A stretch of DNA of 64,000 nt from Marchantia polymorpha subsp. ruderalis. Taxonomy: Eukaryota; Streptophyta; Marchantiopsida; Marchantiales; Marchantiaceae. The position numbers and the translations under genes were made by a program. The stretch's first letter is position 1. Every line of letters starts with the position of its first letter. The stretch lies in NCBI GenBank assembly GCA_037833965.1, contig AP031356.1, positions 11,492,501-11,556,500 of the forward strand. Direction: 5' to 3'. The notes under the pieces were generated by a model. The model was given only the letters and a program-made list of their open reading frames with translations. It had not been told where the DNA came from and did not search any database. This document shows positions 1,574 to 30,930 of this stretch, one piece after another.

Positions 1574-3555
1574 CTTTTGAATCTTTTGTGATACAAATAC
1601 AAATTTTAAATAGTTGCATGATATCGTGTATTTGCATTTTTTTACTAAGATGCATGTGTTTGTAAGATGACAATCATCTTTAAACTCTCCGAGTATCTAG
1701 TATTGATACACGATTGAAACTTTTGCATTTCAAAATTCATGATAATCTACTCAAGATATTATGTGATGTTTATTTCTTCTGGATTTAAACGGTTTTCAAG
1801 TATAATCATAAGCTATTAGATTTTTAAGAAAGTCAATCATTGACAACAATTTACATAGTGTGTGAAGTATTATAGACTATGAAATTTTATAGCCTAAAAA
1901 TTTATCATTCAAATGATTGACTTTTTATGAATCTAGATCATTATAAGGTAGGTGAATTTTCAACTTATTTATGCTAACAAGATCAAATTTTTAGCCATTA
2001 ATTTTATTGAAATAATGATTATCATTATTTTTTAATGATAAAATTTTAATAATGTCACGAGCAGAAGTTTTGATATAGATTATGCACAATTGCAAAAGGT
2101 AAAAATTTGAAAAATAATTTATACGTTTTACACTTCAAACATTATACAACAATTTAATATCAACAAAGTAATCTATTTAAAAATAATGAAATCAAATCTT
2201 TGAAGTTTTTGCAAAATTTCACATAATTATATTTATCAATTACTAGATTATGATGAAAAGTATGATGATGACAATAGATTGATTTTGAAAAAATAATAGT
2301 TGTATATTTTTAATATTTTTATTAAGTTTGATTTAAATATGTTCATGGAACATGAGATCTAATCATTGATTGATAAAAAATGGTGGAATTTAATGAAGAG
2401 TTCAAAAGTAAGAATCTTTACTCATAAATTCTTCTATTTTCTTATGAAAAAGCTTAGTGAGTTTAAGTGAAATATGTTCATGGAGCATGAAATGTAATCA
2501 TTGATTGATAATTACCATTTACCATAACAAGATGTGAAAGCTAATTAGTATTGCAAAAAAAAACAATATCTGAGCTCATACTGCATATACTATCTTTTTT
2601 TGATAGAAAATATATGTTAGATGACAAACACAATCTAACATAGGACAATTAGTAAAAGAGTAGAAACATCTTTAATGATTTAGCATTTTACTCATAAAAA
2701 CCGTGGACTACAACAAAGTATTTTTGATTGTAGCAAAATATTGCACAAATCAACTGATATGTAATTGATGTGATATTTGATTTAGTATTTCATGAGAAAA
2801 TTGTAATTAAAATATTTTTTTAGATATCTAGATAAAAAAATGCTACATTAGATAAAAAATTGATTTTAAGAGATAAAATTAAGAAGAATTGGTTTATAAA
2901 TATTGAAATAATAATATAGATAAAAATATGTTTAAAAGCAGTAGAATGCAAGGTTTGATAAGTATGTGAAAACATAACAATTTTCATGAAGTTTATTTGA
3001 TCTATTTGTATATATGAAACATGTGAATAGATTTGATCTTCTTTAGACTTAAAATTCATTGTTATGACTTGCTGATTTTAACAAAAAAATCAATTCGATG
3101 TTGATGAATGCAAGAATCAACTAAAGTTTGTCATTTATGATGAAAGATTTTGATAAATGCAAATTTATATATAAAAGTTGATGCTAATAAGAATTTGAAG
3201 AAATGGAAGCTATGACTATATCAACACAAGAATATCCAACTTGTCTATGAAAATTTGTTTTACATGGCTGATTTTACATGAATTTGAAATTTTTTGATCA
3301 CTTATTTTAATTTTTTTAATAAATGAAAATTTGATTTTTGCTATTGGGAAAAAAGATGTACATTTATCTTGATAAAAAAAGTAACTCAATGTATGTTTTG
3401 TTGTGCAATAGACATGAAATTGCTCTAGCCATGAATAAGGTGAAAAATTTCATATCAAATTGAGGATAAATATATTCAAAAGCCATGATAGAAGATTTCA
3501 ACAAAAATATATTATTATGTTTGATGTTTTATTAGACTTTGTCTAATTGATTTTA
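1574..3555. other. AT-rich spacer, no gene seen
   Basis: Very AT-rich, with stops in all frames. The open frames present (for example 2820-3059 minus) have low-complexity composition dominated by Ile, Phe, Asn and Lys and show no domain. The last few hundred bases may be decayed upstream parts of the copia remnant that follows, but I could not align them by eye. Confidence 0.6.
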
Positions 3556-3985
3556 AGATATGTTGATTTTGTAGAGAAGATCTAGACAAGAGAAAATCTA
3601 TAATTGGATATGCTTTTACCTTTGGTGATGGATGCATTTGAAGATTTTTTTTCAATGAATGAAAAATTTAATTCATAAGAAGAATTAAATGTGTTATGAA
3701 AATATTAAAAGAAAATAATTTATATAGCTTAATAGACTTATGCCTGAAATGAAATTCAAGTGCTATCATTATAATAAGTCTAATGCAATATATATTTTAG
3801 CTTATCAACTAATCTATAGCAAGAAGAACCATATCAATATCATGTTTTATTTTATCAAAAATACAGATGCCAATTACAATGTTGAGCTAGTCAAGATTAA
3901 AGTTAAATGTAATCTAACAGATGCATTGATAAAGTTATTGCCACAAAGAGTAATGAAAAATATTGTGTTGCCTAGATAGAAGATA
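3556..3985 (+). pseudogene. Ty1/copia polyprotein remnant (end of RT and RNase H)
   Basis: Around 3556-3650 the plus strand reads, with one frame slip, RYVDF then DLDKRKSIIGYAFTFGDG, matching the conserved copia segment GYVDSDYAGDLDKR..TTGYVF. From 3740 an open frame gives AIYILAYQLIYSKKNHINI, FYFI, VELVKIKVKCNLTDALIKLLP, which is the copia RNase H end (typically SAI.LA.NP..H.RTKHIDI, HF.R, V.T..N.AD..TK.L). In-frame stops, for example TGA after GDGC, and length loss make it a pseudogene. No LTR was identified around it. Confidence 0.75.
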
Positions 3986-4016
3986 ATTCAAAAAATTATA
4001 CAGAAACTTTGAAGTG

Positions 4017-6933: not shown

Positions 6934-7719
6934 CCTGACCACTCGACGTGCCAATTCTGTCTTTCACTTCGACAGTGATCACTCTTGCGAGGAAATAATT
7001 GATTGATGGACTCTCACACCTCCAGCAAACGCACAAAAATAAGCACAATTTTGTCTTTTGGACACAGAATTTCGCTTCAACGAGCGATGTGCTAGAACCA
7101 AAGAAATTACAACCTTTGGATGAATGGAACTCCACTGCTTCTGCTCGGATGAATCGCGAGGCTTTAACCCTCTGAAGGAACAACGTTGGAGAATCGCAAA
7201 AGTGCAGAGAAAGGCGGGGAAGCTGAATCTGGATCCAGGAGCAAGTAGACGCATGCGTCACTTGTCACCGCCGGGCACAGCCGCGTGGAAGCCTACTTGG
7301 ACTAATCTGCCACGTCGAGCCTCCAATCAAATGTCAGCAGCCCATTGTGCCAAGTGTCTGCGATGCTCTGTGACTGACGAGAACAGTGGTCCTTTGATTT
7401 GCAATTAGCTGATTTTTCAAAATTTCTACCTTCACATGATTGATTGACTTCATTTCTGAATATGTATTTATTTTTTTAAAGACTGGGTTTCTGTGTTTCT
7501 GCTTTATATAGGTAGGGAAAAAACAAAATTTCAAGTACTCCTAGGATCGGAGTCCACGATAAGTTTGCATCGTCGGGTCGCGAGTAAAGAATTTCTCCAC
7601 GACCTAATTTTATGTAATTGGGTCATTTGTCTGTGCTGGCTGTTGCTGACGCGATCTCGCGATGAAGTGATGCGCTGCGTAGTCTGGTAATGATGCACTA
7701 TGTCGGTCATGGTACTCAC

Positions 7720-9081: not shown

Positions 9082-11504
9082 ACAGTATTCTCCAGTTTAC
9101 ACCACGAGGGTTGCACTTCGCGACCTTCATGCACATCTCTTTCGTACTGCTGACTGATTAGACGGTACAAACTTCTGACTATGACATACCCCACCCACCG
9201 CAGCAGTGTTATCTCTCTGCTCCGGTATGCTTTCGCTCATCATGTTCTCATCTCCAGTTCGTGCCCTGTCTTAGGGGTTTGAGAACGCCTGGCTAGTCTT
9301 CTTTCCAGTTCCACCGATAGTCATGGCTAACATCAACGCATCTACAGGTTCAGTATTTCAAGATGCCTACGTGTTTCCAGGTGCATAAAACGGACTGTTC
9401 TGGCCGGGTTTTGAACTCACGAGGAAAACAGAGCTCAGACATATTATGTGTGCCAGTGTGATCAAGGACAGGTTTGGGCATACAATCTGTAATCGTCATC
9501 AATCATCATCCCGATGTGCACTTGCGGGTAGACTTACAGCGAATCCGTGAAATTGATCATGTTCCACATTAGTACCCACTTATACCGGAACAGATTAACT
9601 TCTTAACGGGTAAAATAGATTATTCGAACAGAAGATAGAATTCTGTTCGAACGCATTGTGACGGGTAGACCAGGTTGTAGACATCACAGCTTCATATTGT
9701 GCAGGACTTCTTGTACAGAATTTAGAACCATTCTTATCCTTTAGGTAAATCAAATCTACGAAGTCAGGTTAAGCCGCAAGTGTGAACTATGATCCAGAGT
9801 CAATTCTCAATGTATGCGAGATTGCAGTACTTCGAGCAAGGATCCCAACTTCTTATTTAATCGTCACTTCTGCTTTTGAAAACTACATGCTAATGCATGA
9901 CTGAAGCCGAGATTCTGTTATTGCTATTTCTAGGGTTACTGAAGGTTACAGGCATCTGAAGCATATTCTCCTCCACAAAAATTTGGTGTCTCCAGGCACC
10001 ATCAGTAGTGCACAGTTTCGTTCACACTAGACCTTTTCAAAGTGCAATCACTTGATGTGCGCGACTTGTTGAAGCTCCGTCTGCCTGCAAGTTGAGGTTG
10101 TGTCTTGCTTCGAAAAAAATTACTTCATCGTCTGAAAGGGTATGTGGCGGCATGTTCAAAGAAGAAGATATATGTGTGTATCTGATACACACCTTGGCAT
10201 ATAAATATCCGTATAGCAAATGCAGTATTCACAAGTTACTACCGTCACCCTCTTATACGTCAAGTTGATACTTCGAACTGCATATATCATTCGATATATG
10301 CAGAATATCATTCGATGAAGATACATTCGTGAATCAGTATGTATTAACACTGAGAGGTCTAAGAGGTCTAAGTAGGCAGCAAGGAACCTCTTGGACATAA
10401 GCCTGATATGAGTGGACCTAGAGGAAACCACTAAGTTGAATCACAAGCTTAATCTAGGTGCCGGATATGGGAGTAATCATAAATTACAACCGATGCCTTA
10501 TATCCGGATCAAACACTCTCTCACCTCCTAGAGCAAAAAACTGTATCCACTATGGACAAGTTTAAAAACTACACTTTTTTACAAGTTAAAACTTGAAGCT
10601 CATTATCTACCGTGGTGCTATACAGCACTAAATATAAATTCCTAACACTTGATGCTTTGTGATCTCGAGAGATTGATTCATGATCATTAAGAACCTTATG
10701 ACCAGAGCTGGAGAGCTATCTCGATGAGCTTTCATGGAGATTGTAGATCAGACTCAGGCTAGCCTTGATCACATCTTGGTATTGCATTCAGACGCATTGT
10801 TGTTGCACACAGTTGGCTATCTCTGCCTCAGACACTGTCCATGTTGTAGCAACTTTGTACAATAAACACCCGTTAAGTTCATCTTTTGGGCCCATATAAT
10901 CGAATGGAAATGTGTAGAACGTGCGCGGGTGGATAATCAAGAGGCCTATGTCAAATGAAAATGCTACACAATTATTTACTCTGTGCAGAAGCTCAACTAG
11001 TTTTATTCCCAACTGCTCTCACCTGAATGGTGCTGAACTTCTACCTGTTTAGTTTGAGCATGGAACACCGGGTTCTCAGCGAACTTGATTGAGCTCTGCT
11101 TTGCTTATTCCAATTAAATATTGATTGGAATTCCCTGTCCGGAATCGTTCACCAGGTTTCTGAGCCAGCAAGTTTTTATTTGCAAAAACTCCAATAAAAT
11201 ATAATTTATGACATGATATTTTTCCTCCGGAGTTGATGTATTAACTGCAAGAAACAATTTGCTTTAGAGCTCCCATACGATTGAAATAGCGTACCCTAAG
11301 GTATCCTGAAGTAGAATTTTTGTTTTCTTGATTGGAGGCCCGATCGGTATGGGAGACTCCAACTGTTGTTTGTCCTTGTCTAAACTTTTTCCCAAAATTG
11401 TGTACTTCAAAAGTGTATCAAACATTGTTTACAAATTTAATCATTTTCTCGGCTGCACCATAATGTGTCTACTCGATTTAGCCATAAACTGCCAGACAAT
11501 TCCC
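9082..11504. other. Intergenic, nothing recognised
   Basis: Moderate AT content, only short open frames with no domain signature on either strand. Upstream exons of the minus-strand gene ending at 7720 could lie here, but I see no convincing coding block. Confidence 0.5.
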
Positions 11505-17111: not shown

Positions 17112-17403
17112 TGTCATGTAGTTACGAGTCGGCCCACGCAGTTTAGTCACTTACTATCTTTAGAGTTGAAGTTAGGGTTCGGTCACGAGGGGTATAGAGT
17201 CGGGGACGGCTCGAAGAACGTTAGTTCTTCGAGTCGAGCCTGGAAGCGTCGGGAGCGTAGAGCGACTTTCCCTTTTGCGTCGACCTAGATTCTCCGAGTG
17301 TGGAATGGGTTGGGCTTGACTCATGTTTGTGACGGTGACGGTTTGTTGCCAGTAGGGTAATTGACCGACGGAAGTTCCAGTGGGGAATCTCCCGTTTATT
17401 TCA
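17112..17403 (+). repeat. R block, left copy (LTR-like, 292 bp)
   Basis: Begins TGTCATGTAG, ends TTTATTTCA, and is the same length as 28592-28883 with six substitutions. It contains a TATA-like box (17193-17196) and a short hairpin (ggctcgaagaac / gttcttcgag near 17209-17233). Unlike a normal 5' LTR it is not preceded by block A, although A is what follows the polypurine tract at the 3' end. Confidence 0.92.
17193..17223 (+). promoter_or_regulatory. Candidate element promoter: TATA-like box and inferred start site
   Basis: GGTATAGAG places TATA at 17193-17196. The A at 17223, 30 bases downstream, begins AGTTCTTCGAG, which is the exact complement of the putative primer-binding site. The start site is an inference from that complementarity and spacing. 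The same pair exists in the right R block (start at 28703). Confidence 0.45.
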
Positions 17404-17414
17404 CTCGAAGAACT
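17404..17414 (+). other. Candidate self-priming primer-binding site
   Basis: Immediately after the R block the sequence is CTCGAAGAACT, the exact reverse complement of 17223-17233 within R. I saw no match to common tRNA primers such as TGGTATCAGAGC. Tf1/sushi-type elements prime reverse transcription with the first 11 nt of their own RNA annealed to a site just after the LTR; the geometry here fits that model. A competing hairpin inside R uses the same bases. Confidence 0.5.
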
Positions 17415-19617
17415 CCAGTGGGGGTCCTGCAGTGCGGGATCACGAGAAAGTTTGTTAATTTGTTACGTTTCTGTGTGTTCCGTCGCGTGTGTGAGTTGGT
17501 GAGTTCGGGTATGTTCGGGCCTGAGTTACTTCCTGGATCTGACGGGAGGTAAATTGTGCGACATAGAGGGGGTGAATGTATCGAGGAATTTCGGTCTTCT
17601 GCGTCGAGCACTGAAGATCAGTGTGCTACCTGTTTCTCACTGATCAAGTCCTCGATCACTAGGTCATTGAGGATGTGGATGTCGAGAGTGTGATATCGAC
17701 GATTGCACTCTTAACTTGGTCGCCAGGGTTTATATCATACAAATTAGAAAGCTGAGGAGGAAAAAGACGGGGAGGGGAGAAGGTCAAGGGCAGCAGCAGC
17801 AGTATCAGCGGCGCGTACCCGTGGCCAGGGCCATCGTTTGAAAGAATTGCGTGTGGGAACGACGATTGAGATTGAGTTCGTCCGGCCGGTGTTGGTATTT
17901 CTATATCTCTTCGTTCGAGACATCGTTGGCGGCTCCGAGGAGATCTAGCAGTGTCTCGTATCAGTCCGGTGCTCGTAACGGAGAGGATTGTACCCAAGAC
18001 AAACCCTAAATATTTCTCTTTGCTGCGTGCCAATTGGTTCGATTTTTCATATCTACATCCATCGACCTACCTTACCCGACCTTTCCTCTCCTTTTGATCT
18101 TCTCCACCTCGGTGACTCCTTCGTTTCGACCTCAGGACGACCTTCGTGGTCTCATCTCGGTCGTGTCTGGTTTCGGAAGGAAAGTCGGAGTTTATACCTC
18201 ATAAGCGGCGTCACGGGTTTTTCTTTGTTCCTGATCTTGGTTTGGCTTGGACTCGCCGCGTGGATTGGAGATTCGTCAATTGATAACTGAGACTGCCCCC
18301 CTCAGTCTGTAGGCAATGTTTGCTGTGCTACAACGATCATACCTGCGCTGCTTTGGAGCTTTATTGCCTGATTATTTCCTGCGCTTTGCTGGTCAGGCTG
18401 AGTGAGAAGTTCTTAATATTAGTCTCTGACCGACTCATATGCCTAACCTCCTTTTACACATACTTTACTAGTCGGCAACACCGTGCGTTGGACCGGACGC
18501 ATCCTACGAGAGGCCGTTTTGGCCAGATTTGCAAATCTCACTGTCTTGACTTCGAGAACTCATTTTTGCCGCGAACTTTTGCTACAACACTGGCCTGGAG
18601 GTGGGAAGAAGATCTGACTACTTCATGCCGGCAGCGATTCTTGGGATCGGTGCAGATTATGTTTCGGTGCAATCCGCCGGAACGTGCCGAAAATGGAGTT
18701 GTTGAAACAAGGTGTTTGAGGATATTTGGTCTGAGCACAAGTTGATGATCCTACCACAAATTGTTACTGGCAAGCCAATCGGCCACACCGAAGTGGAGAT
18801 GTTTACTTAGAAGTAAAGTGGCTGATCTATAAGTGATTGAATATGCAAAGTTTCTAGATCTCGCCATCTACTGTCCTCCCGATTCCACCCCGGCTCGAGA
18901 AGGGTTACTACTGTTGACCCGAAAGCAGTGCAGGGTGCAAGAATCTACAGACCTGTACGGCAAAGAGGATCTGGAAGGGGCCTGGGCGTTGAAAACCTCT
19001 AAGCTGGTCGCTATTCGACGAAAGCCAGGATGTCGAGTGAAGAGGACAGGAGCTGTCAAGAAATACTTGCCCTAACTTGTACTTTGAGAAGCGCACCCAC
19101 TGGTGCTTACAGAATCTGGGGCCAGAGAGAGATCTGTTTAAAGTCCGGGACATGCCATGTCGCTAGGTAGACCGACTTCCTTTCCTAATCTTCAGGAGCG
19201 GTATACTACCGATCACTTCTACCGAATTTCAGTAGAATCTACGGAGCCAGATTACCCGCCATTTCGGATATTCCTAGTACATTCACTCGGGGATTCACTA
19301 ATTCCACAAGTCATCAATCAGGGTGAGCTTCGACCAAAACTGCCGTTGTGTTTCTTACGTTGCAGACCCCCTCGAAAGTCTTCGGCTGCTCGTGCTTTCA
19401 GAGGATGGTTAAAAGAGTTGGGACACTCTTTTTCTCCCTTTTTCGCTTTTGAGTCGAAATACCTTGGTACTTGATTGATGCTTGTTGTACTTTGATTGTA
19501 TTCTGCTACATAGTAACTGCTAAATACTATGTACTAGACTGGTTTGTCACCTTGCAGTGCACGTACTAGCAGCAGCCAAAAACTTAGCATCTTATAATGA
19601 GAGTGACTCATTTGTAC

Positions 19618-19644
19618 ATCTAAATGATAGTGAATCATTTAGAT
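19618..19644. repeat. Hairpin in gypsy leader, 11-bp arms
   Basis: ATCTAAATGAT (19618-19628) pairs exactly with ATCATTTAGAT (19634-19644) across AGTGA. It could be an RNA structural element of the leader; no function is known. Confidence 0.7.
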
Positions 19645-20084
19645 ATTTCATTTTATAGTTACACTAAGATGAGAATCACCAGGGATATCAGAACATCTGA
19701 AGTCTAAACTACTTCAGTTTACAGACGTAGTAGTTCAGGCACATTTGATCATATATCAGATTTCTACTATCAGTGATAAGAGTAGTGTGTGGTATTACAC
19801 AGAGGATGGAATAGTTTGAGCACAAGGTTTGGCAATTATTTCTTGTGCTACGCATTTTAGAGTTGACTTTATATAGGTCTTAAAACTCTCTTTAGTTAAC
19901 GTATCATTTTACTGTGGTAATTATACATCAGTATAATTTACAGTCAAAAGGTTACTGGTGATCCTGTAACACTTTGTGATAGTTTCTAGTTAAACTATTT
20001 TTAGTTTTCAATTTAGTGATCTAGTTTACAAATACTCTGTAAACAATCCTTGTACCCAGTGGAGTTTTGACTTGTGAAGAGAAA

Positions 20085-20441
20085 ATGCCGCTTGATGACA
20101 AAGTGGGAGACAGTTTACCAGAGATTCAGCCAGTGGAGGTCGTCAGCACCGAGGAACGTGATCAGGAGCAGGAGGTGAGGGTGCAGCCTCAAGTAGAAGA
20201 GAATGTGGTAAACCCTGTCGTGGTAGAAGAAAAAGATTCCGGGTTAGATTGAGACGAGGCACTAGCCGTGGAAAAACTTCTAGAGGAATCCGGCCTAGAG
20301 TACAGGGTATGTGAGGATGAGTTACTAGACCTTCCGCAGGATATTGCCGACCATTTGAGAGATGTTCAGTATATTCAAGACTGTCTTTCAGAAGAAATTC
20401 TTGTACTAGAGAAATTTCTCGATAATCTTCCAAAGGATTGA
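20085..20441 (+). pseudogene. Short acidic ORF in the gypsy leader, one in-frame stop
   Basis: From ATG at 20085 the frame encodes MPLDDKVGDSLPEIQPVEVV and further Glu/Val-rich sequence, meets TGA at 20250-20252, then continues in frame as DEALAVEKLLEESGLEYRV and LPQDIADHLRDVQYIQD to a stop at 20439-20441 (118 residues apart from the internal stop). It is very acidic, and the second half could form amphipathic helices. No family recognised. The uniform composition across the internal TGA suggests that the stop is a recent mutation in a once longer ORF. Confidence 0.5.
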
Positions 20442-21321
20442 TAGCAACTACCTGTAGCGTTTAGACAAAAGGTACTGAAGGGATCGGGAGTTTGCACCCG
20501 GTCTCACTACCTGTAAACGTGATGTTTTGAAAGCATTGTAAATATATATATGACGTAGTCAATATATTGAGCTTTCAGGGTGTAGTGTGTTTGTTGAGGG
20601 GCAGTGTGACCCCTGTGTGAAGGAGAAGGAAAAAAAAAAAAAAAAGAAGTTTTCGAACAATTTTTGTTTGGATTTGGAGGAAGAGGGCATCATAGGCACT
20701 GGAGGCCCACGTAAATGGAGAGCGATGGAGATCGAATCGGGATCGCGAAGCAATGCGATGTCCCGTGTGTGTTGTCTTGTTTTGTGCTGTGTTTCCTTTA
20801 GACTGGAGAGTCGTTGCTAGCTGGTTGCTTGTGTTTGGATCCTCTCCAGTCTTGCTTCCTGGTGCGCGCCCGTGTAGGGGTGACGCTGATTTCCGGAGTT
20901 GTTTTACTCCTGTGTGCTGGCGATAGGGGGCTGGACTTGATCACCGGCCGGTCTATCTATGTTTCTCTCACGGTGAGACTGGAGTGATGACCAGTAACCG
21001 TGAGAGTCTTCTTGCTGTGATGACAGGTTAGGTTGCCCATACCCCTTAGCTAGTAGGGCTAGAGTAGCTCAGTGCAGCACGGCGTCAGGGGCGGATTGGG
21101 TTATTGGGTGGAGATCTGGCAGTGGTGCCAGTTGAGGTCTCGTCATCACGGAGCAGTCTAGTGGTCCTATTGAGGACCGCGGGGGATTTACGCGGAGTGG
21201 GTTGAGGTATCGGCTACCTTCACCTATTTCACCAGTTGTTGCGGAGCAGGACCAGAGTGTTGCAGACACAGAGTCTTTGGTGGTGATATCGTCTAGTGTC
21301 TCAACCCCATTGATTTGGGAC

Positions 21322-24300
21322 ATGGACGGGATGTACGGGGCCTCGAAGGGCCCTCGACGTTACTCTGGTGCAGTGGGCACCATCGAGCTTGATGATTTTA
21401 TTCAGGAGTTCGACACGTGGTGTGATATGCAGTTTCTGCGTAACCCCACGTTGTTTACACCCTTCTTTGCATGGAAGGGGTTATTCCAGCATTTGGAGGG
21501 GCCTCCCATGGACGATTATCATGAGTTTGGGAGAGAGTATGCTGCAGAGATTGATGCATGGAGACGGCATTGGTCTCCGAACTACTCATCCATTACCCAG
21601 GGTGGTGTGGGTACCAGTGGAGCTGCGAGTATCGGCATCAGTGGAGGTGCGAGTAGTAGCATCAGCGAGGGTACCAGTGGAGCAGTTGGCGCAACTGGTA
21701 CTAGTACCAGCAGCGGTACTGTTAGCATTGCCGGTGGCAGCACGAGGGGAGATGCTACTGGCGTACCTTCGTTTAGCCCCATTCCTGAGTTCTTCCAGAG
21801 ATTGAGGAAGAATTATCAGGGGGTGAAAACGGAGAAGTTGAGGAGCCTCCAGGAGTTTGAGCGGAAGACTGGTGAGAGTATTCATGAGGCATACACTCGT
21901 ATGCGACGGCTCATCTCAGTTACTCACGGTGTGACTGAGGCACAAGCTGTCCAGTACTGGTATCGGATCCTGGACAGAGAGTTGCGGAGGAGAGTGCGTG
22001 ATGCTACTCTCATGAGCGACTCATCACCCACATTAGCCCATGTGTTTGCTCTTTCTGAGAAGATTGAGCTTAACATGGTGGAGGAGAGGGTGGTGACGTC
22101 TACATTTGCGAGGGACACGACCACTACTTCGCGTATCCCACATAGCCCAGCACAGTCTCGCCCCATAAGTGGGAGTCGTGGAGGTCATACACGACATCCT
22201 TCAGGTCAAAGAGAGCCTAATGCGCGGCCACCACTGCCTTCATTTTCGGGCCAGCCACAGGGACCGTCATGTTGGACATGCGGAGGTAGCCATATGAGGA
22301 AGGATTGTCCCCAAGAGCGAGAGGGACAAACTCCACATGCTAGGCCACAGCCGGCACAGGTGACCTGTGATCATTGTCATCGACCGGGTCACCCTCGAGA
22401 GCGTTGCTTTGACCTTCATCCTGAGTTGAGATCTGGAGGTAGAGGTCGTGGAGGTGATGCTCCACGAGGCCGAGGTGGTCAAGGTGGCAGAGGCGGTAGA
22501 GGTGGTAGAGGTAATGGAACCATTGAGCATACTGCAGCGAGTGCTACTTCCGCCACAGAGAGCGCTATGGCTGCTCGGATTGAGCAGTTGGAGCAGAGGC
22601 TTGCTGCTATGGTTGGTCTGGGGGCGAGCACTTCCACATCTTACGAGGGAGAGGATTTCTCCTATTTGGCCAGTGCAGCACAGGTTGAGGCATCAGTTGC
22701 AGTGATCAGAGGTGGTGCTCGCACTTCAGAGCCACGTGGTGCGACTGTGGAGTTGGACCCTCAGAGGGGTGAGGGTGGACGTCAATCTAGACTTCCCCAG
22801 TCCTTTTTGTTGTCAGAGGTGGGTAGCAGTTCATCTATGAGACCTGCACCGCCTAGTGACACTAGAGTGAGAACTGAGGTTCTTACATCATCTGTTGGGG
22901 ACCTAGACGTGCCATCTAGTGCAGTGATGCGGATGGCCACTTCAGTCTTGCGATCTCCATTGTTTTCAGCCACGGAGTTGATAGACTCTGGTATTGATTT
23001 GGCTCGAGTATTTCGGGTAGCAGCCACGTCGTGTGAGCATGGGAGAGTCGCTGCTACGAGTGCCGAGATACGTGAGGATACAGTTGAGGACCCATCCTCC
23101 ACGTCTACATTGTTCGAGGAGACTACTTGGCAGGCCGCAGCGGCAAGGATGGAGTCCTTACCAGCTCGCCCAGCCATTGATCGCGAGAGTATTGTTCCTG
23201 GTGTATGTATGGTGGACAACCGAAGTGGTCTATTTCGGTTAGTGAGTTCTACTGGACAGGTGTATGTCCCAGCCAGAGTTTTGTTGGATTCTGGTGCACA
23301 GCCCTTGATGTTGGGCAAGGCTGCATGCATTAGTTTGGGCATTCGGAGGTCAGAGTTGGAACCTTGCCCATTCCAGATCCAGACATCCCTTGGTGGCGCC
23401 AGCAACAGGTCTTACTTTATGACCAGGGAGAGCGTAGCGGTGCAGTTGAGGCATGATCACCCTCATGATAACTCGCAGTTTGGAGTTCGTGCTGTGGTTA
23501 CATCAGCAGAGTCATATGATGTGCTTGTTGGTGGAGTGGTGTTATACCCGATGGGCTTTCGGATGGACTATTGGACGGAGACTGCCGCATATCGTCCTGG
23601 TTGGCAGTCCGGAGATGGACGTCTAAGCGAGCTGCCAGTGAGATTTATTTCTCGGGATCGACCTCTTGGGTCTTCATCAGCAGTCTTGGCATCTGTTGCG
23701 GGTTTTAGCGGAGTGCTTACCTGGCCCGATGACTTGTTGGAGGGAAACATGTCTGCCGACGATACCTCACTCTACGAGGATGTGGAGGAGGTTGTGAGTT
23801 TCACATCGGCGGTGACTTCACCCTTAGATGTTCCACTGTGGAGTTCGTGCCAGGCACTACAGTTGGAGGCTGATAGGTTGGTGAAAAAGGCTTGGAGTGA
23901 AGCCTCTTTACCAGCAGAGCCAGACACGGCTTCAGCTGATTGGCTAGTTAGTGGGTCTAGCGCATTGTCTCCATTGGTTACTACACCTATTGCATGGGAG
24001 TATTCCTCAGAGTGCGTTTGTTTGCTAGATCTTTTTGGTGGAATCAGCACAGGTTTGGCTGCAGTGTTGCAGTCAGGCATTCTCGTACGGAGATACTTGT
24101 ATGTGGAGAAGGACGAGACTGCACAGTTGATGCGGCGTTTTCCTTTGTTGTTGCCGCGATCAGCTGTCCGAGGATTCCAGAAGGCGTTGCCTTTAGACAT
24201 TTCATTGCTGGGGGCGCCAGACCTTGACCGCGTTGGCCATATTGATATGGTGATTGCGGGCTGGCCATGTCAGGGACACACACGCGCTGGACATGGGACA

Positions 24301-25185
24301 AGGTTGCATGATCCCAGATCTCGGATGTTTTGGGAGATGATGCGAGTGTTACGTCATCTTCAAGTGCAGTAGACACGTTCTCCAGCATACATTCTGGAGA
24401 ACGTACCATTGTTGGGTGACACTCGGGCCCAGTTGATGGCGAGTGTCCATCAAGTCCGAGCATGGATTGGATCAGCAGTATTGTTGGATGCTGCGAAGGT
24501 TGGATCACGGGCTCATCGTGCACGTTTGTGGTGGACCAACCTTTTGCCACGTGAGATATTGCGTCATGCCTATGATTCGGTGCAGCGTGATCCTACACTC
24601 ACCGTTAACAGTATCTTGGATGTTTCCCGACACTCTCAGGTAGTGAGAGTTGATGACAGGTCACCTATGGCGTTGGTGAACCGCGTAGGTCAGCCTCGGA
24701 TGGCTTTACCTACATTTGTCAGTTATCCGGCATCACATGCATATTGTGATGGGGGACCTGGACTACTATGGGACAGTACCCTACATCAGTTGGTGGAGCC
24801 CAACGCTGATGAGAGAGAGCGTGCGATGGGGTTTCTTACTGGCGTGACCGCGGCTTCTTCAGTTTCAGAGGCGTCGCGTCGTCAGGTTTTGGGTCAGGCT
24901 ATGGACCTGAACTACTTGACGTGGATTGTGAGCTTGGGTTTGGCCGAGCAACGCCGTTTGCGCGCAGATTTGATGGTTGTTACACCACTTATTAGCTAAT
25001 TGCCTACCGGGACGGTAGTGGCAATGGCTGGGGGCAACAGGCGAGATATTCGGCATTCTTGGAGTTTATGGGACGTGACGAAAGGACTTGCCAGAGTTGC
25101 AGCCCATGCAGTTGGAGAGGATTCTCAGGTGGAGGTGGCTACGAAGGAGGGTACGGAGAACCCTTCTTTGCAATGTGTAGCGTAG
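21322..25185 (+). CDS. Gag-protease-DNA methyltransferase polyprotein of the gypsy element (two nonsense codons)
   Basis: I place the start at the first ATG of the frame, 21322 (MDGMYGASKG); the frame opens after a TGA near 21133 but has no earlier ATG. In order: Gag (about 21322-22250, with LFQHLEGPPMDDYHEF), CCHC knuckles (22270-22308, 22366-22407), RGG-rich stretch (22435-22520), aspartic protease with DSGA at 23287-23298, and a C5-cytosine methyltransferase (about 24007-24975). The frame ends at UAG 25183-25185, which looks like a regulated readthrough stop leading to pol. Two further stops are probably mutations: TAG at 24370-24372 within the DNMT, and TAA at 24997-24999 just after it, where two older copies have TCA. 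There are no frameshifts. Confidence 0.88.
22270..22407 (+). other. Two CCHC zinc knuckles of Gag nucleocapsid
   Basis: The first, CWTCGGSHMRKDC (22270-22308), is C-x2-C-x3-H-x4-C, one residue short of the retroviral consensus. The second, CDHCHRPGHPRERC (22366-22407), is the canonical C-x2-C-x4-H-x4-C. They bind element RNA during packaging. An RGG-type Gly/Arg-rich stretch (GGRGRGGDAPRGRGG and on) follows at 22435-22520 and probably adds RNA affinity. Confidence 0.9.
23200..23570 (+). other. Aspartic protease domain
   Basis: RVLLDSGAQPLMLGKAACIS, with the catalytic DSGA at 23287-23298, followed by hydrophobic strands ending near YDVLVGGVVLYPMGF. This is a retropepsin-like domain that would process the polyprotein. 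It is separated from the DNMT by about 430 bases of low-similarity linker. Confidence 0.8.
24007..24975 (+). other. C5-cytosine DNA methyltransferase domain inside the gypsy polyprotein
   Basis: The conserved motifs are present in order: I, LDLFGGISTGLAAVL (from about 24025, AdoMet binding); II, YVEKD; IV, GWPCQGHTRAGHG with catalytic Cys codon 24268-24270; VI, YILENVP (about 24388-24410); VIII, RAHRARLWWTN; IX, RERAMGF; X, LGQAMDLN. The order I-IV-VI-VIII-IX-X is that of unrearranged bacterial, Dnmt1 and Dnmt2 enzymes, not the circularly permuted DRM type. A TAG at 24370-24372 falls between motifs IV and VI, so this copy would make a truncated enzyme unless it is read through. The domain lies between protease and RT, a place where Ty3 elements normally have nothing. 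The substrate is inferred to be DNA cytosine; specificity is unknown. Confidence 0.9.
24370..24372 (+). other. In-frame TAG within the DNMT domain
   Basis: The frame reads CAA GTG CAG TAG ACA CGT. The older plus-strand fragment (near 30165) reads CAA CTA TAG CAG TCA CGT, so its stop is one codon earlier. The simplest ancestor is CAG CAG, hit by an independent C-to-T change in each copy. Confidence 0.75.
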
Positions 25186-25191
25186 CAACTA
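25183..25191 (+). promoter_or_regulatory. Putative UAG readthrough signal between DNMT and RT (UAG-CAA-CUA)
   Basis: TAG CAA CTA at 25183-25191 fits the type I readthrough consensus UAG-CARYYA known from tobamoviruses. Upstream and downstream coding regions are in the same frame, so suppression would fuse Gag-PR-DNMT to Pol. The old copy has TAG CAA TTA at the matching site (29166-29158, minus). Conservation of stop and context, while surrounding sequence has diverged strongly, argues for function. Confidence 0.7.
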
Positions 25192-28100
25192 TTGACAGTG
25201 TCGCCTCCCTCTAGTGTGCCTATGGAGGAGGAATGGAAGCCATTGATTGGTTCCCAGATCACAGGAGGAGAGAGGCGAAGATTGACACAATTCCTACGAG
25301 ACTATAGGAGTTGTTTTGCTTTCAGTTTGAAGGAGTTGGGTGCGTTGATTGGACCCGGTATACGGATAGAATTGGCTAGTGATACGCCAATCTTCCGTCG
25401 TCCTTATCGATACAGTGAGATGGAGAGAGATTTGATTCGGAGTAGGACGTTGGACCTACTGAAGGCTGGACTAGTGGAGTTATCGCATGGTGAGTATGTG
25501 TCAGCCACTGTCATGCCGGTGAAGAAGGATGTACATGGCAACTACACGGATAGGCGCATGTGTGGAGACTACCGTCCTATCAATCGGCAGACGAAGTCCG
25601 ATAAGTATGCCATGCCTACACCTGAGGAGATCTTCGATGTGGTGGGACATGCGAGGATTTTTAGTACTTTGGATCTTCGGGCAAGATACCACCAGTTGCC
25701 AATTCGGGAGGAGGACAAAACCAAGACAGCGTTTTGGGGCGTCAACTCCCACGGCAAGGATTGTTTGTATCAGTGGCGATTCTTACCCTTTGGGTTGAAG
25801 AATGCACCTGCCGAGTTCCAGAGGGTTATGGACAGAATCTTGGCGGGGCTGGATTTTGTCAGATGTTACATTGATGATATCTTGGTGTTTAGTGACACTG
25901 TGGAGCAACACCAGATACACTTGCAGATTGTGTTTGAGCGATTGAGGGCTCATGGTTTGAGGAAGTGTAAGTTCTTCCAGGAGAAGGTTGAGTACTTGGG
26001 TCATGTGATATACCCAGGTGGTTTAGGAGTTCAGCAAGCAAAGGTGGAGGCTATTGCACGCATCCCTCGTCCCACGGATGTGAGTAGAGTTTGTGCATTT
26101 ATGGGTTTAGCGAACTACTACCGGAGGTATGTGAAGGGGTTCAGTGCTATAGCCAAGCCTTTGAACCAGTTGCTAAAGTCAGATCAGGAGTGGCAATGGG
26201 GAGATGAGCAGGAGAGAGCTTTTGTTGAGCTCAAGGCCAGGTTGGTGGCCGCTCCCATCTTGAGGAGACCTATCAGAGGTCGTCCATACCAATTGCACAC
26301 TGATTGGACTATGTTGGGACTTGGAGCGGTGTTGACGCAACGTGATGATGAGGGCAAGGAGTTTGTGGTTGCGTACGCTAGTCGTTTGAACAATGCAGCG
26401 GAGTCGCGGTATAGTTCGTACGAGGGAGAGTGCTTGGCAGCAGTGTGGGCTGTGGCGCACTTCAGGTGTTACTTGTTTGGTACACAGTTCACCCTTGTTA
26501 CTAATCATCAACCGCTCAAGTGGTTGATGGAGTCCGACAAGCTTACAGGGAAGCTTGCACGGTGGGCTCTCATCTTACAGGAGTACGACTTTCAGGTAGT
26601 GCATAGACCTGGAGTTGCGAACCTAGATGCCGATGGTTTGAGTCGAAACCCATGCACTAGCCAGGATGATGACACTGGAGCTAGATGGCATGGTGAGGTT
26701 GACGAGGAGATGGTGCCTGGTTGGCATGCATCTGCCTTCATGTGTTGGTTACGTGGGAACTCCAGCAAAGAGGATCATCTGACATCTTACTCTAGTCAGA
26801 GAGTAGATGGTCGATCTCCAGATCCTGAGGTTGAGGATGGTGGTGTGGATCAGCGTGATGTACACGATGATGCATTGGTGTTGGAGTTCCTACGGACCAG
26901 CATGGTGCCAGGCACAGTGGATGCCAAGGAGCGAGATCGTGTTCTCCAACGGGCCAAGAGGTACCGATTGGAGGGATCACATGTTCTCCGAGTGTGGGAG
27001 GACGGTAGGGTACGAGTAGTACCACATCCAGCCCAGAGAGCACGCATTGTGAGGCATGCTCATGAGGAGTTGGGACATTTTGGAGTGAAGCGTACATACA
27101 GCTTACTCCTTGGTCAGTATTGGTGGCGTGGTATGCATACTTAGGTACAGCAGTTGGTATCACGTTGCATGGTTTGTGATCGAGTGAGGGCATCATTCAA
27201 TGCCCCGACACCAGTGTTACATCCATTACCCATCATGGGGTTGGGTTACCGTTGGAGTTTGGACTTTGCTGGACCACTACCTTTGACTGTACGACATCAT
27301 CGGTATGTGTTGATGATGGTGGAGCATTTCTCCAAGTGGATTGAGTTGGTGGCATTACCTGACAAGGCAAGTGAGGGAGTAGCATATGCTTTTCTTGACA
27401 GAGTGCTTAGTCACTATGGTGCACCAGCTGAGGTGTTGACCGATCAGGGAACGGAGTTTCAGGGTGAGTTTCAGGTCTTGTGCGACAAGGCACTGATTGA
27501 TCATCGGACCACGTCGCGAGATCATCCAGAGGCGGATGGTTTAGCTGAACGTGTTGTACAGACGGTGAAGAGGGCGTTGCGCAAGTATGGCCTGCAGAAA
27601 GGTCACCTTGGGGACTGGGATATCCAGTTACCGTGGTTGGCCATGGGATATCGGTTCAGTCGGCAGGCATCCTTGGCTTCCTTCTCACCATATTTTCTAT
27701 TGTACGGCCGAGATCCAGACTTGCCAACATCGATTCGTCGTGAGTCTAGCGAGGTGGTGAACCTTGATGACCCGAATATGTGGGTGAGAGTATGTTTTCA
27801 ACGTGCAGAGCTCTTTCGGAGAGTTATGCCTGCAGCGTTTGAGAATCTTGCGATTGCTCAACATAGAGATACGTTGCGGTATGCAACCATTCGGGGAGGA
27901 GGTTATCGACCATCAATTCGTAGATTCCATGTGGGAGACTACGTCTATCTACAGCAGACTGCACCGACGACATTGGATGTGACGGCGGGACGCACAATCT
28001 TGCGGGTGCGGGAGGTGTTACCTTCTGGAGTTCTCCTGTTGGAGGGTCGTGACGGCGTTGTTTGGAAGGATCACGTGCGCAATTGTGCGCCATGCCACCT

Positions 28101-28302
28101 CCCAAACGTAGATGGCACTATGGACTCAAGCTTAGCGGTAGTACGTGCTGGCTTGAGGTGCATGCTGTGTGGGTCAGCTGGTCAGGCGGCTTGTATGTTG
28201 GTGTGTGATAGGTGTTCTAGGGGATGGCACATGTTGTGCCTGACTCCGCCTATCTATGTTATTCCGGCTGGACGATGGGTGTGTCCTCGATGTACTTCAT
28301 AG
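25186..28302 (+). CDS. Pol polyprotein: reverse transcriptase, RNase H, integrase, PHD finger
   Basis: In frame with the upstream Gag-DNMT and probably expressed by readthrough of UAG 25183. RT (about 25390-26090) has FSTLDLRARYHQL, RFLPFGLKNAPAEFQ and the active-site YIDD at 25867-25878. RNase H (about 26270-26640) has LHTDWT and YEGECLA, but TNHQPL in place of TDHxPL. Integrase has the H2C2 finger (HAHEELGH...CMVC, about 27050-27180), Asp codons at 27262 and 27442, and Glu at 27547. A PHD finger closes the protein (28159-28299). The domain order RT-RH-INT defines Ty3/gypsy. One stop, TAG at 27142-27144 inside the integrase zinc finger, is probably a mutation; the old copy reads TAT there. 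Stop at 28300. Confidence 0.9.
26503..26505 (+). other. RNase H catalytic Asp replaced by Asn
   Basis: The codon is AAT in GTT ACT AAT CAT CAA CCG. Ty3 RNase H normally has Asp here (TDHxPL), and the old copy keeps GAT. A G-to-A transition, predicted to impair RNase H of this copy. Confidence 0.75.
27010..27740 (+). other. DDE integrase domain
   Basis: Zinc-binding HAHEELGHFGVKRTY...CMVCD, then catalytic Asp in WSLDFAGPL (27262-27264), Asp in LTDQGTEF (27442-27444) and Glu in ADGLAERV (27547-27549). There are 34 residues between the second Asp and the Glu, one fewer than the usual 35. Followed by LASFSPYFLLYGRDPDLP, the common end of the Ty3 core. It would insert the cDNA and make the short target duplication seen at the element's ends. 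Confidence 0.88.
28159..28299 (+). other. C-terminal PHD finger of integrase
   Basis: CMLC, then VCDRCSRGWHMLCLTPP, then WVCPRC: C-x2-C-x11-C-x2-C-x4-H-x2-C-x15-C-x2-C, a good C4HC3 PHD pattern with the usual Trp before the last Cys pair. PHD fingers often bind the histone H3 tail. In chromoviruses a chromodomain at this position targets integration to chromatin; by analogy the PHD finger may steer insertion here. The finger is also found in the old copy (14154-14486). Confidence 0.85.
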
Positions 28303-28473
28303 GGGTAGATGACTTGATCTTCACATGTTATGAATTGCAGCTAGGCGACTAACGATGGGGCGACATAGCACCCGGCCTACTGGTTCGCGCACCCACGAAG
28401 GTGTATAGCATGTAGTTGTAGATAGGGCTACCTGGGAGTAAGAGGGACCTGACTGCCAGCTAGGGGGGCGAGT
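28303..28473 (+). other. 3' untranslated region of the gypsy element
   Basis: 171 bases from the pol stop to the first base of block A, non-coding, ending in the polypurine tract. The same segment is recognisable in reverse in the old copy around 13920-14100, so it belongs to the element. Confidence 0.7.
28462..28472 (+). other. Polypurine tract
   Basis: AGGGGGGCGAG lies two bases upstream of the TGTGACA that starts block A. This is the expected plus-strand primer position and marks 28474 as the 5' edge of U3. The old copy has a purine-rich agagaggcaag at the same place. Confidence 0.7.
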
Positions 28474-28589
28474 TGTGACATTTGAGTGTGTACTCTCTCG
28501 CACCTTATATGTGTGTATGTGTGTGCGTATGTGTATGTGAGTAGCATGTCAGCGATGTAGAGTGTATGGCGATATGTATTCGCACGACA
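28474..28589 (+). repeat. Block A, first copy (U3 start)
   Basis: 116 bp, TGTGACATTTGAG to CGCACGACA, GT-rich in the middle. Identical to 28886-28999 apart from one 2-bp GT indel. Follows the polypurine tract directly and is joined to the R block by GC, forming the palindrome GACAGCTGTC (28586-28595). Confidence 0.92.
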
Positions 28590-28591
28590 GC

Positions 28592-28883
28592 TGTCATGTA
28601 GTTACGAGTCGGCCCACGCAGTTTAGTCACTTACTATCTTTAGAGGTGAAGTTAGGGTTCGGTCACGAGGGGTATAGAGTCGGGGACGGCTCGAAGAACG
28701 TCAGTTCTTCGAGTCGAGCCTGGAAGCGTCGGGAGCGTAGAACGACTTTCCCTTTTGCGTCGACCTAGATTCTCCGAGTGTGGAGTGGGTTGGGCTTGAC
28801 TCATGTTTGTGACGGTGACGGTTTGTTGCCGGTAGGGTAATTGACCGACGGGAGTTCCAGTGGGGAATCTCCCGTTTATTTCA
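28592..28883 (+). repeat. R block, right copy
   Basis: 292 bp matching 17112-17403 with six substitutions (about 98% identity by eye). Followed by GT and then block A', whereas the left copy is followed by the candidate primer-binding site. Confidence 0.92.
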
Positions 28884-28885
28884 GT

Positions 28886-28999
28886 TGTGACATTTGAGTG
28901 TGTACTCTCTCGCACCTTATATGTGTATGTGTGTGCGTATGTGTATGTGAGTAGCATGTCAGCGATGTAGAGTGTATGGCGATATGTATTCGCACGACA
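28886..28999 (+). repeat. Block A', second copy, at the right end of the element
   Basis: 114 bp, nearly identical to 28474-28589. It ends ...CGACA directly at the CCAA duplication. Its presence after R, and the absence of A before the left R, give the layout R-genes-A-R-A'. Confidence 0.92.
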
Positions 29000-29003
29000 C
29001 CAA
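29000..29003. repeat. Target-site duplication CCAA, right of the younger gypsy element
   Basis: Second copy of CCAA; the old element's sequence resumes here without loss. Confidence 0.88.
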
Positions 29004-29445: not shown

Positions 29446-30930
29446 TTGAATCTTCTCGTACGATATTGACATCAGTTGCGGATTTTAGCAGAACTTAGGT
29501 AGTCCAATGACTTGTTAGAGTGCAATATGTCGGGCAACGACACTCTAGTCTATGAGGATGTGGAGGAGATTGTGAGCTTTGCAGCGGCATGTCTTCTTCC
29601 TTGGATGTTGCACTTTGATATTTTTGGCATAAATTACAGTTGAAAGCTGATAGGTTGGTGAAGAAGTCTTGAAGTGATGTCTTATTACGAGAAGAGATAG
29701 AGAGGGCTCTAGATGATCGGCCCCTTTGTGGCCCTACAACGTTATTTCCATTAGATACTACACTGATTGCATGAAAGTATCCTCCGGAGGGTGTTTGTGT
29801 GTTGGATCTTTTTGGTGGAATTAGCAATGGTTTGGTTGCAGTGTTGCACTTAGGTATTTCCATACAGAGATACTTGTATGTGAAGAAGGATGAAATTGCA
29901 CGTTGATTTTTCTCACGACATATTGCACAATTAATGTAGCGTCATCCTTCATTGTTGCCACAATCAGCTATTCAAGGATACCACAAGGCGTTGCTTTCAC
30001 ACATTTCATTGTTAGGGGGGACAGACCTTGATCTGGTGGATCATATTGATTTGATGATTGCAGTATGGCCATGCCAGGATCACACACGCACTCGTCATGA
30101 AGTAGTGTTGCATGATCATAGATCTTGAATGTTTTGGAAGATTTTACGTGTGTTGCGTCATCTGCAACTATAGCAGTCACGTCCCCTAGCATATAGACTA
30201 GAGAACGTGTGATTACTAGGTGACATTCAAACCTTGTTGATGGCGAATGTTCATGAGGTCAAATCATGGATTGGATCAGCCGTATTGTTGGATGTTGCGA
30301 GGGTTGTATCATGTGCTCTTCGTTCATGATTATGATGGACAAAGAGATACTAAGTCCTGTCTATGATTCTATGCAACATGTTCCTACACTCACCATCGAT
30401 AGTATCATGGATTTTCCCCGACAATCTTAGGCGATGAGAGTCCCTAATAGATCACCCATGGCATTGATGAATCGCTTAGATCAGCTTCGAAAGTCTTTAC
30501 TCACGTTGGTTAGTTATCCGACATCACATGCTTATAGAGATGATGGTCCCAAGCTTGAGATACTCGTGTGCAGCAGTTGGTGGAAGCCAACAACAACTGA
30601 TAAGCGCAAGCGCGCAATGGGGTTTCCTATCGGTACTATGATGGCTCGTTTAGTTTCAAAGGCGTCGGCAGATGTTGGATGAGGTTAAGGATATGACCTT
30701 TCTGACTTGGATTGTGAGCCTGGATTTGGCTAAACAACAACATCTTTGCATTAATTTGGTGGTTTCTACATCACTGGTTAGCTCATTATCTACCGGGACG
30801 GTAGAATCAATGGCTAGAGGCGACAAGTTAGATATTTGTCATCCTTGGAGTTCATGGAACATGATGAGAGGGTCTACTAGAGTCGCAGCCCATGCAATTG
30901 AAGAAGTTTTTCACGTGGAGTTTGATCTCA
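29446..30930 (+). pseudogene. Degenerate plus-strand fragment of the gypsy family: DNMT region
   Basis: Matches 23675-25130 of the younger element. DNMT motif I is readable as VLDLFGGISNGLVAVL near 29805, motif IV as WPCQDHTRTRH near 30065, motif VI as LENV near 30200, and the C-terminal part as FLTWIVSLDLAKQQ near 30700. Several stops and indels, including a short inserted repeat near 29905-29935, kill it. It starts in the protease-DNMT linker and ends before the readthrough stop, with no LTR or pol, and abuts the minus-strand copy at about 29445. Confidence 0.85.

Follow-up and report, generated by a model that had tools for sequence, protein, structure and literature searches.

Retroelements that carry a DNA methyltransferase (DNMT) have been described by de Mendoza et al. 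(2018, PMC5890265), who reported a DNMT-bearing Gypsy element in Klebsormidium nitens, KnitGypsy-Dnmt3, as well as SymbioDIRS-Dnmt3 and SymbioLINE-Dnmt. A 2025 survey (PMC12344493) also mentions that some DNMT3s lie within retrotransposons. Here we analyse a Gypsy-type retrotransposon family of Marchantia polymorpha, one copy of which occupies positions 17112-28999 of a stretch of 64,000 nucleotides from M. polymorpha subsp. ruderalis (assembly GCA_037833965.1, contig AP031356.1, positions 11,492,501 to 11,556,500), referred to below as the window. A first interpretation of this DNA from its letters alone (the sequence-only reading) had placed the element at 21322-28302, which is too short, and had correctly named the precedent of de Mendoza et al.; it had not noticed the putative internal attachment palindrome, the candidate self-primer or the captured host sequence described below.

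Like KnitGypsy-Dnmt3, the Marchantia family has Gypsy domains, an unrearranged Dnmt3 domain, a DIRS-like order of repeats and signs of purifying selection. The DNMT of KnitGypsy-Dnmt3 is however described in the Pol open reading frame (ORF) (PMC5890265), whereas in Marchantia a conserved amber codon lies between the DNMT and the reverse transcriptase (RT). The text sections on KnitGypsy-Dnmt3 in that article are silent on readthrough of a stop, on self-priming, on duplicated targets and on the capture of host RNA, all of which are seen or proposed in the Marchantia family, and the terms PHD and Marchantia are absent from its main text. The two Symbio elements also carry a DNMT, but they are described there as a tyrosine-recombinase DIRS or a LINE, whereas the Marchantia element has an rve integrase. 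Neither the Marchantia family, nor a PHD finger on a Gypsy integrase, nor the capture slot discussed below was found described in the open-access papers searched, which leave out most subscription papers. From the sequence evidence we consider it probable that this family combines a Gag-Pro-DNMT3 protein with a leaky UAG codon, self-priming, integration at an internal palindrome and a slot that takes up host RNA.

In the window, Pfam recognises RVT_1 (4.1e-28), RT_RNaseH (5.9e-34), Integrase_H2C2 (1.8e-9) and rve (8e-13) in four open pieces of a single frame, and the order RT-RNase H-integrase with an rve core is that of Ty3/gypsy elements (Metaviridae). The same frame contains DNA_methylase (4.5e-6) and PHD (2.1e-8). 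The Gag match is weak (Retrotrans_gag, 0.064), and for the protease there is a DSGA motif in ORF1 but no Pfam match in the window; the relative P0043 has one. The sequence-only reading had proposed a Ty3/gypsy element in which a DNMT is built in and a PHD finger follows the integrase; Pfam bears this out, as do selection and distant relatives.

The window element is a decayed copy of a family of well over 100 members. In the 241 Mb of the M. polymorpha assembly (nine contigs), at least 123 places were scored for PF00145, at least two of which are host genes (L001, L002), and at least 150 for integrase-PHD, out of 645 candidates; the DNMT is not the one-copy insertion of a host gene that the sequence-only reading had set against its own proposal. 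L001, on contig C6, is a host DNMT3 gene, 99% identical to P0174, which is MpDNMT3b of M. polymorpha subsp. ruderalis, while the DNMT of a sister copy of the element, L005, is 94% identical to Mp_8g17980, annotated as "hypothetical protein". We read closely the window copy and ten fetched copies, picked by the length of their ORF1 frame (nine at 1355-1361 aa, one at 1365 aa). The two occurrences of the terminal repeat A, A1 and A2, differ by 0 or 1 sites in 5/7 copies: there is no difference in c8_3.0M, c8_12M (one gap) and c3_23M (truncated by 22), one in c1_0.4M and c8_16M, and six in c7_12.9M and in the window. The family has been recently active.

The methyltransferase belongs to the DNMT3 class, by profile and by fold. 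When a profile of ten retroelement DNMTs is compared with the PDB, DNMT3A/3B come out best (2e-20), followed by an unnamed-type plant entry (1.2e-9), DRM2 (1.8e-8), HaeIII/HhaI (about 5e-7) and DNMT2 (1.2e-4), with no DNMT1 among the 57 PDB sequences listed. The AlphaFold2 model has a predicted local distance difference test score (pLDDT) of 73 and a predicted template modelling score (pTM) of 0.80, and the 50 Foldseek matches listed for it are all DNMT3 structures (TM by query 0.57-0.65). The motifs DLFGG, GWPCQG, ENVP, SRAHRxR and GQAMDLN are all present in the window; GWPCQG, ENVP and SRAHRxR, which hold the catalytic motifs PC, ENV and RxR of C5 DNA methyltransferases, are found in 11/11 copies, DLFGG in 9/11 and GQAMDLN in 8/11. 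Residues P102, C103, E146, N147, V148 and R188 are invariant in 10 aligned rows.

Between two Marchantia subfamilies (Ks about 0.3), the ratio of nonsynonymous to synonymous substitution rates (dN/dS) is 0.118-0.137 for the DNMT (three pairs), 0.126-0.159 for the PHD finger (four pairs) and 0.052-0.063 for the RT. Both the DNMT and the PHD finger are under purifying selection. Constraint is weaker in the last 77 codons before the amber (0.45-0.70), and the dN/dS of ORF2 within subfamilies is 0.26 and 0.44 (two pairs; 38 and 25 changes).

In line with the proposal of de Mendoza et al., the DNMT would most likely methylate new cDNA inside the particle. The abstract of their paper states that retrotransposon DNMTs carry out de novo CG methylation (PMC5890265). 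It may also be that it helps the host to hold the element down, or that it acts on RNA, instead of protecting cDNA. These are open possibilities named by de Mendoza et al. (section 11 of PMC5890265), and the evidence presented here does not discriminate between the roles; we regard this alternative as rather unlikely, but a serious contender.

All eight zinc ligands of the PHD finger are kept in 15/15 ORF2 copies and in 20/20 further loci. The sequence-only reading had named two losses that would speak against it, that of the DNMT motifs from most copies and that of the PHD cysteines, and neither is seen. The PDB relatives of this finger include those of CHD4, PHF12, KMT2D, DPF, PHF21A and KDM5, several of which read histone H3 that is unmethylated at K4. 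In PHD fingers that read K4me3, the second residue ahead of the zinc-binding histidine is a tryptophan, and the element PHD has none at this place. Judging from its nearest relatives, it would guide the element into chromatin that lacks methylation at H3K4, or tolerate integration there. Together, the DNMT and the PHD finger may serve the writer-plus-reader strategy that the sequence-only reading had suggested.

Protein searches for relatives (best 120 of 306, all 58, and best 120 of 450 matches) gave 129 proteins with polymerase or integrase matches that could be parsed. Among these, the domain order is RT-RNase H-integrase-PHD in 50, RT-RNase H-DNMT-integrase-PHD in 13, DNMT-integrase-PHD in nine and DNMT-RT-RNase H-integrase-PHD in six, and 28 of the 37 that have both a DNMT and an integrase match also have the PHD finger. 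The combination of DNMT and PHD, for which the sequence-only reading named no precedent, is therefore confirmed, but it is widespread, being already present in these 28 public proteins, most of them unnamed. The PHD finger is not visible in the K. nitens row P0049 (marked partial) or in the Closterium row P0071.

All trees were built from chosen rows, one of them from one in three of the metagenome rows and without six Marchantia near-copies. In a quick tree of 68 rows, 59 form one group (Shimodaira-Hasegawa-like approximate likelihood ratio test, SH-aLRT, 100), 55 of them with the PHD finger. The ten rows that have the DNMT between RNase H and integrase, including Tetrabaena, all lie inside one group of 12; Haematococcus and Chlamydomonas eustigma share this layout but are too short for the tree. 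The rows with the DNMT before the RT are scattered (seven rows, one of which, P0075, has a DNMT match of only 56 residues). In a careful tree of hand-picked rows, from which DNMT1, DRM and bacterial-type rows were left out, 27 retroelement DNMTs split with support 100/100 from the remaining rows, nine DNMT3s of plants and ten DNMT3-like proteins of metagenomes; P0043 and P0064 are on long branches. The retroelement clade includes liverworts, Klebsormidium, Closterium, Haematococcus and C. eustigma, and K. nitens P0049, which may be the published KnitGypsy-Dnmt3, is inside the DNMT clade of the Marchantia element. The simplest reading is a single old DNMT lineage that changed place within the element, and horizontal spread is possible. 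The wording of 2018 was different and had the K. nitens lineage acquire its DNMT independently (PMC5890265).

A scan of genome contigs returned one relative at the DNA level, L049 (CADCWO010000201.1), a contig of 9285 bp filed under a cyanobacterial metagenome-assembled genome (MAG), in which it is evidently a contaminant. A weaker one, L050 (28% identity), was not used, and no DNA of relatives was found in the viral contigs scanned. The two ends of L049 are identical over 127 nt (1-127 and 9159-9285), which makes it a circular assembly of 9158 bp, derived either from circles with one long terminal repeat (LTR) or from collapsed copies. Like L049, the DNMT P0152, named under an Obscuribacterales MAG, is likely eukaryote contamination. 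The RT-RNase H-integrase-PHD protein P0002, 68% identical, was assembled from a transcriptome (TRINITY name, EukProt), so that some relative is transcribed. P0064 and P0087 have an extra C-terminal domain of about 200 aa after the integrase, with DPWAG...SPWF motifs, which is possibly a second methyltransferase; the tail of P0087 has a weak match to a D12 adenine methyltransferase (0.027), that of P0064 gives 0.74 against the PDB.

Reverse transcription would start by self-priming, the 5' end of the RNA pairing with an 11-nt site beside repeat A. In the 9/9 copies with A1, the primer binding site CTCGAAGAACT has its complement, AGTTCTTCGAG, in the element's own LTR, at position 112-113 of A, and 11-nt matches occur at 0/3585 and 0/1100 control positions. 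L049 has a different 12-nt pair, CTTGACAAAGAT after A and ATCTTTGTCAAG inside A, and self-priming is supported because both partners have changed together. The RNA fold at the self-primer has no excess stability (z -0.28). Self-priming in Tf1 also involves 11 nt. The likeness to Tf1-like Gypsy elements lies in this self-primed site; in Marchantia, the LTR defined by purine tract and primer site disagrees with the ends used by the integrase.

Since a purine tract (AGGGGGGCGA in the window) precedes repeat B and the primer site follows repeat A, the LTR made by reverse transcription is B-GC-A. The integrated copies have another layout, A...B-A-B or A...B: their left end is A and their right end B, so that the two ends are not the same LTR and the direct repeats are split as in DIRS elements. 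Target duplications of 4 bp are present in 9/9 copies with both ends (CCAA, TCTT, ATGT, TGAT, TGTC, AAGA, GATG, CACA and AGGC), directly bordering TGTCATG at the left end and CGACA at the right end; c4_2.5M and c5_21M, in which A1 has no full match, were left out of this count and of that of the slots. The copies c6_30M and c9_22M have duplicated targets without the second A-B unit, and c3_23M has one extra unit. The integrated ends thus appear to lie inside the B-GC-A LTR, at the near-palindrome CACGACA-GC-TGTCATG, where the integrase would cut. CACGACA-GC-TGTCAYG is found in the Marchantia copies and, with one base changed (position 7048), in L049, whose B also follows a G tract. In the genome, A followed by the primer site occurs 295 times (control 2; at most one mismatch), B-GC-A 146 times (control 0) and A-GT-B 128 times (control 6), the last two with at most two mismatches.

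The 3' end was surveyed in the 20 loci with the best PHD match, three of which had already been fetched. In 13 of the 20, B comes after A, ten times with the precise joint TTTCAGTTGTGACATT and three times with variants; the others are cut inside B (two), run into the primer site in a tandem (one), join inverted gag (two), join the ORF1 tail (one) or continue in other sequence (one). The tandem, L029, shares a single LTR; in L034 and L035, A2 is joined to inverted gag, and such joins may be products of self-integration. Cutting at the internal palindrome would turn a one-LTR circle into A...B and a two-LTR circle into A...B-GC-A-GT-B; the substrate of integration would then be circular or joined cDNA, yielding the 4-bp duplications. 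A linear cDNA whose two LTRs are both cut at the palindrome needs no circles, and two such cuts suffice for c6_30M and c9_22M, the extra A-B unit of the other copies being put down to later unequal recombination. We find this explanation unlikely, in view of the A-B joints, seen in 13 of the 20 loci surveyed and precise in ten of these, present at about 128 places in the genome and found also inside a target duplication, and in view of the tandem with one shared LTR. These frequent joints and this tandem suggest that the cDNA is joined or circular before it is integrated.

The segment that separates the primer site from the leader, the capture slot, mostly differs in content among nine copies (eight fetched and the window), although just 25 and 38 of the 3126 nt of ORF2 differ in the two pairs compared. 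Shared stretches are limited to 917 bp between c9 and c3, about 600 bp between c7 and c1 and 169 bp between the window and c8_16M. Genome searches covered seven of these slots (c3 and c8_16M were left out), and each of the seven has at least two blocks that match separate loci at 91-100%; no matched locus is within 40 kb of the DNMT or PHD places listed. The slot of c6_30M has five colinear blocks on C6, from which four GT-AG introns are missing, and that of c9_22M four blocks on C5, from which three are missing. These two slots hold spliced host mRNA. The seven missing introns read CT...AC in the direction of the element, so that both mRNAs were captured in antisense. The donor gene of c6_30M has an OB_Dis3 domain (1.8e-6), outside the captured blocks, and the antisense ORF in this copy has no Pfam match.

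In the window slot, 17754-18731 is 99% identical to a C5 locus at 6.61 Mb, upstream of an ORF with a PA domain, and 18717-18968 and 18966-19496 are 98-99% identical to a second C5 locus, at 9.58 Mb; the two loci are joined with an overlap of 15 nt. Compared with the second locus, the slot lacks an interval of 116 nt, which may be a GC-AG intron (in sense) or, with an overlap of 3 nt, a deletion. C8:19255776-19258499 and C2:30886818-30889773 are copies with the slot content of the window and of c8_12M and an extra interval of 116 nt or about 277 nt. In c8_12M, a gap of 276 nt was considered as an intron and rejected, since it has no splice sites; it is treated as a deletion. No clear rule was seen in the order of captures by donor identity.

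We propose that host RNA would be joined into the slot, beside the primer site, during cDNA synthesis; its antisense orientation would fit a jump during plus-strand synthesis. That the slot is instead a fast-evolving leader or a nest of transposons seems improbable: some of its segments match several copies of the element, and gene nature is shown for two donors only, but the colinear blocks with missing introns are 96-100% identical to single loci, one of them beside the Dis3-type domain. The maize element Bs1 likewise holds several host-gene fragments inside an LTR element (PMC13317346); in Marchantia, by comparison, the slot is fixed by the primer site, its content varies by copy, and it holds antisense spliced pieces in two copies. 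The 2026 review of plant gene capture just cited states that 5' transduction is unreported in plants, and the term Marchantia is absent from it.

The coding region was described in the sequence-only reading as one frame from Gag to PHD. Its domains do lie in one frame, but this is interrupted in the window by four in-frame stops (24370, 24997, 25183 and 27142), of which only that at 25183 is common to all copies read; it parts two ORFs and leaves the DNMT on the Gag side, not in Pol. The other three stops, and a 27-nt in-frame deletion in the DNMT, are decay of the window copy. The sequence TAG CAA CYA (CCA or CTA) separates the ORFs in 15/15 Marchantia copies (the ten fetched, the window and four more), and TAG CAA TCA stands at the equivalent place in L049, which has the same layout, with one ORF of 1162 aa that runs from the contig edge and one of 1047 aa, and whose ORF2 is 65% identical. 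Both belong to the type I readthrough context UAG CAR YYA known from plant RNA viruses (PMC11166343), here placed between Gag-Pro-DNMT and Pol.

Among the scored places listed, the longest open frame is 1365 aa for the DNMT and 1231 aa for the PHD finger, so that no listed copy is open across the amber, which is thus not an effect of copy choice alone. Frames of 1351-1365 aa contain 24 of the 123 scored DNMT places, and frames of 1042 or 1045 aa contain 42 of the 150 scored PHD places, again among the places listed. The context CAR YYA had no part in the choice of copies. This codon is probably leaky. The family would then make Gag-Pro-DNMT and, when the UAG is read through, on a minority of chains, Gag-Pro-DNMT-RT-RNase H-integrase-PHD, in which case the methyltransferase would be packaged at a Gag-like rather than a Pol-like dose. 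Ordinary decay of a single Gag-DNMT-Pol polyprotein, as described for K. nitens, is a very improbable origin of this amber. A single ORF does pass from DNMT to RT in K. nitens P0049 and in the metagenome proteins P0013, P0028, P0043, P0044 and P0064, but the stop and its context recur in all 15 copies and in L049, ORF2 is otherwise fully open in 7/10 of the first copies, and twelve relatives of 1228-1433 aa have a DNMT without an RT match.

The A-coding-B-A-B order noted for K. nitens by de Mendoza et al. (PMC5890265) recalls a DIRS-type element with a tyrosine recombinase, an idea that can practically be dismissed here, given the rve integrase, the lack of any recombinase among the Pfam matches and the 4-bp duplications of all nine copies.

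Several points weigh against the combination of features that we propose. The window copy itself cannot encode the proteins. Most LTR-LTR joints (10/13) are precise, although end-joining would be expected to vary. The first ten copies were chosen by ORF1 frames of 1355-1365 aa, for which a stop near that place is expected; the Marchantia copies are close kin, L049 being the sole independent case at the DNA level, and K. nitens P0049 and several relatives pass from DNMT to RT without a stop. The dN/dS pairs all use one reference copy, the values for the PHD finger rest on 53 codons, and selection reveals use, not which use.

More tentatively, this lineage may no longer insert by its LTR ends. 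A DDE integrase with a histone reader would cut cDNA that is circular or joined, using a palindrome within the LTR, DNMT3 would be present at the dose of Gag, and plus-strand synthesis would repeatedly jump onto host mRNAs beside the primer site, leaving in new copies antisense pieces of host genes that might even act against these genes.

Table 1. Features of the element in the window and the basis of each assignment
Feature	Position	Strand	Basis or remark
Left target-site duplication CCAA	17108..17111	.	Flush with A1; same CCAA at 29000-29003
Repeat A1 (TGTCATG...TTTCA), left end used by integrase	17112..17403	+	98% to 28592-28883; 6 mismatches/292
Proposed self-primer AGTTCTTCGAG, putative RNA 5' end	17223..17233	+	Complementary to primer binding site; 9/9 copies with A1
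Primer binding site CTCGAAGAACT	17404..17414	+	Directly after A1
Capture slot	17415..19496	+	Between primer site and leader
Leader	19497..21135	+	Last at least 420 nt common to 8/8 other copies compared (blastn, 9 leaders)
ORF1, Gag-Pro-DNMT frame	21136..25182	+	First ATG 21322; ends at conserved amber; broken by TAG 24370, TAA 24997
DNMT3-class methyltransferase domain	24016..24930 (limits approximate)	+	Pfam, profile, fold, motifs; 27-nt deletion in window copy
Amber, type I readthrough context TAG CAA CTA	25183..25191	+	Conserved across copies
ORF2, RT-RNase H-integrase-PHD, including stop	25186..28302	+	Broken by TAG 27142
PHD finger C4HC3	28159..28293	+	PF00628 2.1e-8; 8 ligands conserved
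Polypurine tract AGGGGGGCGA	28462..28471	+	Sequence; same tract before B in copies compared
Repeat B1, ends CACGACA	28472..28589	+	Repeat comparison
Putative internal integrase site, near-palindrome CACGACA-GC-TGTCATG	28583..28598	.	146 matches in the genome and none in the control (pattern with flank)
Repeat A2	28592..28883	+	Repeat comparison with A1
GT + repeat B2, right end used by integrase	28884..28999	+	Repeat comparison; ends flush with duplication
Right target-site duplication CCAA	29000..29003	.	Matches left CCAA

Directly behind the element, the window contains an older, badly decayed fragment of the DNMT region of a related element (29494-30920), 74-76% identical to the DNMT region of the element itself. 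The lowest GC fraction among 2-kb steps is at 2001-4000 (0.229), and Rfam gives no match in the window at the gathering threshold.

Marchantia thus harbours a young, multi-copy family of DNMT retroelements, in a model plant for which genetic and methylome tools exist, which makes the question of why retroelements carry methyltransferases a testable one. The relatives suggest that DNMT-bearing Gypsy elements form one old clade of the green lineage and are not a peculiarity of K. nitens. If the attachment site does lie inside the LTR, it would offer a concrete instance in which the precursor of integration is circular or joined cDNA, and a slot that repeatedly samples host RNA would, if this reading holds, be a natural recorder of gene capture.

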